Assembly: GCA_012329065.1 (NCBI GenBank)
Contig: JAAXPZ010000016.1
Location: 1 to 64,000, forward strand
Origin: Sulfurovum sp.
GTDB taxonomy: Bacteria > Campylobacterota > Campylobacteria > Campylobacterales > Sulfurovaceae
Length of the DNA stretch: 64,000 bases
Direction: 5' to 3'
Shown here: piece after piece, positions 20-2,289 of the stretch
Numbering within the stretch: the stretch's first letter is position 1
How the letters are laid out: each line of letters opens with the position of its first letter
The notes under the pieces: generated by a model
Told to the model about the DNA's origin: nothing
Seen by the model: the letters and a program-made list of their open reading frames with translations, nothing else
Databases searched by the model: none
Translations under genes and position numbers: made by a program

Positions 20-268
20 ATGATATATGTAGCTATTTTTTACTGTGGTGAATGAAACTATAAACCTGAAGCTTCCCGTGTGGAAGATGAAATAAAAAAA
101 GTTTATTCTCGTGCTACAGTCAATCTTGTAGAGGTAGACGGAGGAGTATTCGAAGTTTCTGTCAATCGTGAGGCTATATATTCCAAGCTAAGAAGCATAG
201 GGACTTCAGAAGATAGATTTCCTCATCCCAATGAGATAGTTGAGCTTATAAAACAAAAACTAGCTTAA
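20..268 (+). CDS. SelW/Rdx-family selenoprotein with in-frame UGA (Sec)
   Basis: Seen: an ATG at 20 follows GGAG (7-10). The frame reads MIYVAIFYCGE, then TGA at 53-55, then NYKPEASRVEDEIKKV to a TAA at 266-268. Reading the TGA as selenocysteine gives 82 residues with a C-G-E-U motif. Known: SelW/Rdx proteins are small thioredoxin-fold proteins with a Cys-x-x-Sec/Cys redox motif after the first beta strand, followed by YK and a helix, which matches here. The part after the TGA looks like a GTG-started 62-residue ORF at 80, but that would lack the redox motif and strand 1. A stem-loop fitting a bacterial SECIS lies just downstream of the UGA. The role is inferred to be thiol/selenol redox chemistry in the cytoplasm. 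It needs selABCD elsewhere in the genome. Confidence 0.87.
53..86 (+). promoter_or_regulatory. Bacterial SECIS-like stem-loop after the UGA
   Basis: The UGA is at 53-55. CTTCC (72-76) pairs perfectly with GGAAG (82-86) around the loop CGTGT, whose GU begins at 78, about 23 nt after the UGA. Known: bacterial SECIS elements are small hairpins inside the coding region with a G in the apical loop roughly 16-37 nt from the UGA. The match is by position and shape only; no folding was run. Confidence 0.7.
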
Positions 269-762: not shown

Positions 763-2289
763 TTATTTCAATAGTCTTCTAGAAAAGGCAATGGCCTCAT
801 CAGCTGGCACCTCACCTCCTATGATACGAGCTATTTCAACAATTCTCCCTTCTTGATTCAAAATAGAAGCCCTACTCTTGCCATCTAGTTTATCTACAAG
901 AATGTGTTGGTTGGCTTTAGCTGCAAGATGTGGCTGGTGGGAGATTGCAAATATTTGGTAATTTGTAGCTAGTTTGGATATCATATCAGCAATAGCAATA
1001 GACTCATCGCCACTGACATTGGCATCTATCTCGTCAAGTACAATAGTACCATGACATGAACTTGTCGTTTCCAAAGATACAAGCATCAATGCCAACCTCA
1101 ATCTGTTATGTTCTCCACCACTTAGTGTTGCTGTACTGCTGTTTTGCATATGCAAATCTACACTATCAGTTCCACAATCACTAAGTTCAGTTTTTTCAAA
1201 CACAAAAATCACTTCTGCTAGCTTCAATCTAGACAAATATTGTTTCATATTGCCAGAAAACAACTTGGCTTGTCTCATTCGTGCTTGCGTAATACGATCT
1301 GTAATTATCAACAACTCAGCATATTCAAGTTTCAAAAAAGACTCTAACGCACTCTTGTCCTCACTTATCCTATCATATCCTGCAAGCTCTTCTTCTTTTT
1401 TGATACAATACGAGATAGCCTCCTCTATAGATCCATATCGATTTTTGAGTTCACTAATCTGCTCTAAACGATTCAAGAGCTTCTCTACATCCATATCTTC
1501 CAGCTCGCTAGTCAATGATTGAGTCTCCTCAAAGTCTGACCTTAGCTGATTCATAGTATCGGAAAAATACCCGCCATCTTTGTCCATAAGTCGAAAAATA
1601 TCAGAAATGCTACCCTCTAGTAAAAAAATTTCTTCCGCCTTTTGGAGTGCGTCATTTATTTTATCGATTTTAGAAAGCTGTTTTTTCAGTACCAGCAACT
1701 CTGTATCCTCTCCTGTCTTAGGGTCTATCGCTTTAATCTTATTGATTTCAAATGAAGTGAACTCAATTAGCTCACTCAATTTTGTTTCATTCTCGCGTAT
1801 TATTTCTAATTCGTTAAGTTTATTTTTGTAGCTAGAGTATCTCTTTTTGTATTCTTTGAGCATTTTTTTGTAATTCTTGTCAGCACTATTTAAGGCACCA
1901 TCAAGCATATTTACTAATGCTTCACTCTCAAATCCGCTAATATCTCTAACGCTGAGATAATGAATAAAAGGAGAAAAGAGTTGTCGCAATGCCTTTTTGG
2001 AAATATTTTGATCGTTAAGATAATGTCTAGTTCTATCTTTTTTGATACTTCTAACGACAAGCTCTTCTTCTAGTTCATAAACATCGGAGCTAAGTGTAGT
2101 TGGCTTATTTAGCGTAATCTCACAGAGTTTTGCCTCTGCACTCATGATGCCCAGACTAGACAAAATGCTGTTCATCAATACTGACTTACCAGCACCAGAT
2201 GGACCACTAAGCACTACCAATCCAGACCCAAACTCCAATGCTACTGATTCGAAACTAAGTAGTGATTTTAGATACACCCTCTGTATCAA
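763..2289 (-). CDS. recN: DNA repair protein RecN
   Basis: 508-residue SMC-like ATPase for double-strand-break repair. Walker A GPSGAGKS is at about residues 29-36, a long coiled-coil region fills about 140-330, the ABC signature LSGGEHNRLRLAL is near 388, and Walker B IVLDEIDANVSG follows. This is the RecN order, though shorter than the ~550 residues of E. coli RecN. The start is TTG at 2289, overlapping the TGA stop of nadK (TTGA), with GGGGAG 7 nt upstream. Translational coupling to nadK is therefore likely. The nadK-recN pairing is common in Campylobacterota. Confidence 0.93.
   Translation of the reverse strand: MIQRVYLKSLLSFESVALEFGSGLVVLSGPSGAGKSVLMNSILSSLGIMSAEAKLCEITLNKPTTLSSDVYELEEELVVRSIKKDRTRHYLNDQNISKKALRQLFSPFIHYLSVRDISGFESEALVNMLDGALNSADKNYKKMLKEYKKRYSSYKNKLNELEIIRENETKLSELIEFTSFEINKIKAIDPKTGEDTELLVLKKQLSKIDKINDALQKAEEIFLLEGSISDIFRLMDKDGGYFSDTMNQLRSDFEETQSLTSELEDMDVEKLLNRLEQISELKNRYGSIEEAISYCIKKEEELAGYDRISEDKSALESFLKLEYAELLIITDRITQARMRQAKLFSGNMKQYLSRLKLAEVIFVFEKTELSDCGTDSVDLHMQNSSTATLSGGEHNRLRLALMLVSLETTSSCHGTIVLDEIDANVSGDESIAIADMISKLATNYQIFAISHQPHLAAKANQHILVDKLDGKSRASILNQEGRIVEIARIIGGEVPADEAIAFSRRLLK

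Follow-up and report, generated by a model that had tools for sequence, protein, structure and literature searches.

Selenoproteins of the SelW type were described from the Epsilonproteobacteria in 2015, with genes that are often wholly unannotated and share, as their SECIS element, a common 5/6-bp hairpin located a few nucleotides after the TGA and bearing an invariant guanosine in its loop (PMC4607533). For the SelW of Campylobacter jejuni (transcript CJnc60), which is absent from the annotation, read-through of the UGA was demonstrated by Ribo-seq and proteomics in 2025 (PMC11955535). Here we describe a locus from Sulfurovum sp., at the very beginning of the analysed 64-kb stretch of DNA (hereafter the window), which we consider, with a probability of roughly 97%, to be a genuine selenoprotein gene of the selW type (Rdx family) occupying positions 20-268 of the plus strand, with selenocysteine (Sec) encoded by the TGA at 53-55. 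It shares with the epsilonproteobacterial genes the type of hairpin after the TGA, the loop guanosine and the fate of being missed by annotation (PMC4607533), and, as far as it can be likened by description, it resembles the C. jejuni protein in its length of about 80 residues and in a UGA read by tRNA-Sec (PMC11955535). This is the correct recognition of an already well-known kind of protein, and it leaves the understanding of SelW and of bacterial selenocysteine insertion unchanged. Nevertheless, a lineage in which Sec-form SelW is rare gains a well-supported example, and the case illustrates that a selenoprotein truncated by standard ORF calling is recoverable from a reading of the raw sequence.

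The frame opens with the ATG at 20-22, is interrupted by a single TGA (53-55) and ends with the TAA at 266-268; with the TGA translated as U, it yields a product of 82 residues with one selenocysteine (U12), MIYVAIFYCGEUNYKPEASRVEDEIKK...KQKLA. A GGAG ribosome-binding site at 7-10 precedes the ATG, and AGGA- or GGAG-like motifs are present at a similar spacing from the start in most relatives. The C-G-E-U redox motif (CxxU) spans 44-55, with the codon for Cys9 being the TGT at 44-46. The coordinates stated in a sequence-only reading of this DNA, including those of a hairpin at 72-86, proved exact. That reading had also held that a standard ORF call loses the redox motif, and mechanical calling indeed starts at the GTG at position 80 and returns only 62 residues. 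Its description of the gene as hidden is apt for such mechanical calling, but not for curated resources, as NCBIfam already maintains the family as a (seleno)protein. Across the window, five frames with a single read-through TGA display a CxxU or UxxC motif, and the selW frame is the only one of the five for which a family match is known; the other four were set aside as chance-like when judged by eye.

Profile searches, in which the TGA was presented to the programs as Cys, place the product in the SelW-SelT-SelH assemblage. The Pfam Rdx model (PF10262) recovers it with an E-value of 3.4e-17 (62.8 bits against a cut-off of 22.6) in an alignment that spans both the redox motif and the TGA, the sole such match in the genome, and TIGR02174 (CXXU_selWTH) does so with an E-value of 5.1e-14 (52.3 bits against 34.2). 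The NCBIfam model NF041051 (SelTWH_Campy, "SelT/SelW/SelH family (seleno)protein") aligns over its full length (1-70 of 70) with an E-value of 2.7e-25, although only marginally, its score of 88.4 bits just exceeding the cut-off (88); this score is obtained with Cys written for Sec, whereas the six-frame scan of the genome gives 80.0 bits, below the cut-off. Hence, the family features expected on both sides of the TGA are present, with the models matching straight across 53-55. The protein agrees with the members of NF041051 in the position of Sec and in its short form, but differs in the motif itself, which is C-G-E-U here and C-N-x-U in most of the Campylobacter members.

An AlphaFold2 model built with 28 homologues (pLDDT 94.0, pTM 0.83) displays the order E-H-E-E-E-H and confidently predicts a SelW-type thioredoxin-like fold. 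In this model C9-G-E-U12 precedes the helix formed by residues 15-28 and follows the strand formed by residues 3-9, in keeping with the placement of the CxxU/CxxC motif after the first strand in the Rdx/SelW-SelT-SelH family. Foldseek retrieves SelW-related chains as the best PDB matches, with 2fa8 at a TM-score of 0.85 (normalized to the query; E-value 6.8e-07) and mouse SelW (2npb) at 0.70, and a sequence-profile search of the PDB recovers the same set of structures. The predicted fold is thus shared with the SelW-related structures 2fa8, 3dex, 2obk and 2p0g and with mouse SelW, at sequence identities to the solved SelW-related structures of about 16-30% over the aligned columns.

Within the order, SelW was detected in 51 of 299 genomes, and exactly one in-frame TGA is present in 51 of the 52 matches; relatives in named records are Campylobacter concisus and another Campylobacter. 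Cys9, U12, Tyr14 and Pro16 are kept in all 28 aligned homologues, among which no Cys form was found. At the level of DNA, the TGA stands at this position in each of the 25 distinct aligned sequences, and three further genomes from this genus retain it. The remaining match of the 52, on the minus strand of genome G274 (C1:253078-253275), contains no TGA, and its alignment to the profile opens at position 10, immediately past that of Sec; possibly, this is a truncated, frame-shifted or altered SelW.

The proposed SECIS apical hairpin at 72-86 (CTTCC-CGTGT-GGAAG) comprises a 5-bp stem and the loop CGUGU, and folds alone with -5.1 kcal/mol (z -2.0). When counting hairpins with five Watson-Crick pairs, a loop of 4-6 bases, a G among the first two loop bases and a spacing of 16-22 nt, measured from the T of the TGA, we found that 32 (1.2%) of the window's 2615 TGA triplets are followed by this geometry; hence, the hairpin is weak evidence when taken alone, and it is the homologues that make it decisive. 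In the 25 distinct aligned sequences its distance to the TGA is identical, with no gaps, and the G at 78, the second base of the loop, is invariant. The five stem pairs are kept in 99.2% of the cells of the alignment, as against 79.9% in shuffles, which ignore relatedness, and no more than 72.8% in the slid controls, which correct for it in part; changes on both sides of a pair occur in 23 cells, as against 6.3 in the shuffles, with none of 500 shuffles reaching as high. Compensatory changes are seen at two pairs, namely the loop-closing pair (CG, UA, AU and GC) and the middle pair (UA, GC and UG), and RNAalifold applied to the alignment independently predicts the same five pairs. The suggestion that the hairpin lies at the right distance for a bacterial SECIS is therefore upheld by the common spacing, the compensatory pairs and the invariant loop G. 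The replacement of U-A by G-C at the middle pair changes both of the codons that it touches, turning Ser19 into Ala and Glu22 into Ala, and thus, judging from the aligned sequences, the identity of these two residues appears to follow from the pairing of the RNA stem. A search of positions 1-1000 of the window against Rfam, with E-values up to 1, matched no family. When a covariance model for the SECIS region of SelW was scanned against the genome, no other site was credible (best other E-value 0.16), and neither selD nor the formate dehydrogenase genes described below were found; hence, as is to be expected of a SelW-specific model, it is not a general finder of SECIS elements.

The genome search proposed along with the sequence-only reading recovered all four components of the Sec trait. 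Contig C40 carries selA and selB side by side and, near selA, also selD (L017:1399-2430, minus strand), and selC, a tRNA-SeC with the anticodon tca, is on contig C53; the window itself is devoid of detectable tRNA genes over its whole 64 kb. A single in-frame TGA lies within the selD gene, where the motif reads RAAGUAAK, and within each of two genes for the alpha subunit of formate dehydrogenase on contig C40 (L060 and L061), in the contexts DHCARL-U-HGPTV and DHQARI-U-HSATV, with hairpins foldable after both of these TGAs. Together with selW, these amount to at least four predicted selenoproteins in the genome.

The family matches, the Sec genes, the homologues and the co-varying hairpin, all computed here along with the frame and the conserved TGA, agree in bearing out the interpretation of 20-268 as a SelW-type selenoprotein. 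Of the two observations that the sequence-only reading had named as fatal to it, a genome lacking selABCD and homologues that start at the GTG at 80 and lack the CxxU/C segment, neither was made. We propose that the ribosome would start at the ATG at 20 and proceed to the UGA at 53-55, where SelB carrying Sec-tRNA(Sec) would bind the hairpin at 72-86; selenocysteine would then be inserted as residue 12, and translation would continue to the TAA at 266-268. By inference from its relatives, as for the insertion of Sec itself, the product is most likely a small thioredoxin-like thiol/selenol oxidoreductase of the SelW kind, with C-G-E-U as its redox loop.

Translation might instead begin at GTG 80 and give the 62-residue protein without the redox motif, as the mechanical ORF does exist and similar GTG-started ORFs are found in some relatives. 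However, no ribosome-binding site is visible before position 80, the GTG overlaps the loop of the hairpin, and it equals an internal codon of the SelW family that varies among GTG, GTT, GTA, TTA, TTG and GCG in the relatives. Moreover, the invariant Cys9, U12, Tyr14 and Pro16 lie before this start, and the homologues keep the segment upstream of position 80 with the TGA in place; given this conservation we reject the GTG start, whose probability we regard as negligible. The interruption of the frame by one TGA alone, in a fragmented assembly of 82 contigs and at the end of one of them, could likewise be taken to mean that a codon for Cys or another residue became TGA in a pseudogene or through a sequencing error. 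Yet the same TGA recurs in every distinct aligned homologue, including those from other genomes of the genus, and is accompanied by the co-varying hairpin and the full Sec trait; with the TGA so conserved, decay or error is an explanation that we likewise reject as extremely improbable. We accordingly retain the selW-type selenoprotein gene as the reading of this locus.

A separate matter, which supplements this reading rather than competing with it, is whether the gene entered the genus by horizontal transfer or descended within the order. Among the 175 genomes of the taxonomic family, SelW scores above the cut-off only in the genus of this organism, where it is present in four of the five genomes (the fifth being 80% complete), yet selA is found in 34 of the 175, spread over 6 of the 11 genera. 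Such a distribution is compatible with transfer, but repeated loss would give the same pattern, the fact that four genomes of the genus have selW convergent with a RecN-like gene indicates that it has settled there, and 80 residues would give little resolution in a tree; transfer is rather unlikely on balance. Somewhat less doubtful, though still tentative, is a broader proposal, namely that within the family Sec-SelW is confined to one genus, having been either transferred in or retained while all sister genera lost the gene, and that the choice of Ser19/Glu22 or Ala/Ala is set by the pairing of the SECIS rather than by protein function.

As selW begins 19 bases from the end of the contig, its promoter and upstream neighbour lie outside the sequence. 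In a second genome of the genus, G320, whose bin is 72% complete, two SelW genes are present (L055 and L059); of these, L055 adjoins a different RecN-type gene and is possibly a contaminant of the bin, and our conclusions do not rest on it. Downstream in the window, the RecN/SMC-like gene (763-2289, minus strand; 508 residues, TTG start) is convergent with selW. Between the two, at 302-715 on the minus strand, is an ORF of 137 residues rich in Ala, Lys and Glu, which has a lipoprotein-like start and a sub-threshold apolipoprotein match as its only hit; three other genomes of the genus show the same convergence of selW and the RecN-like gene, without this ORF between them.
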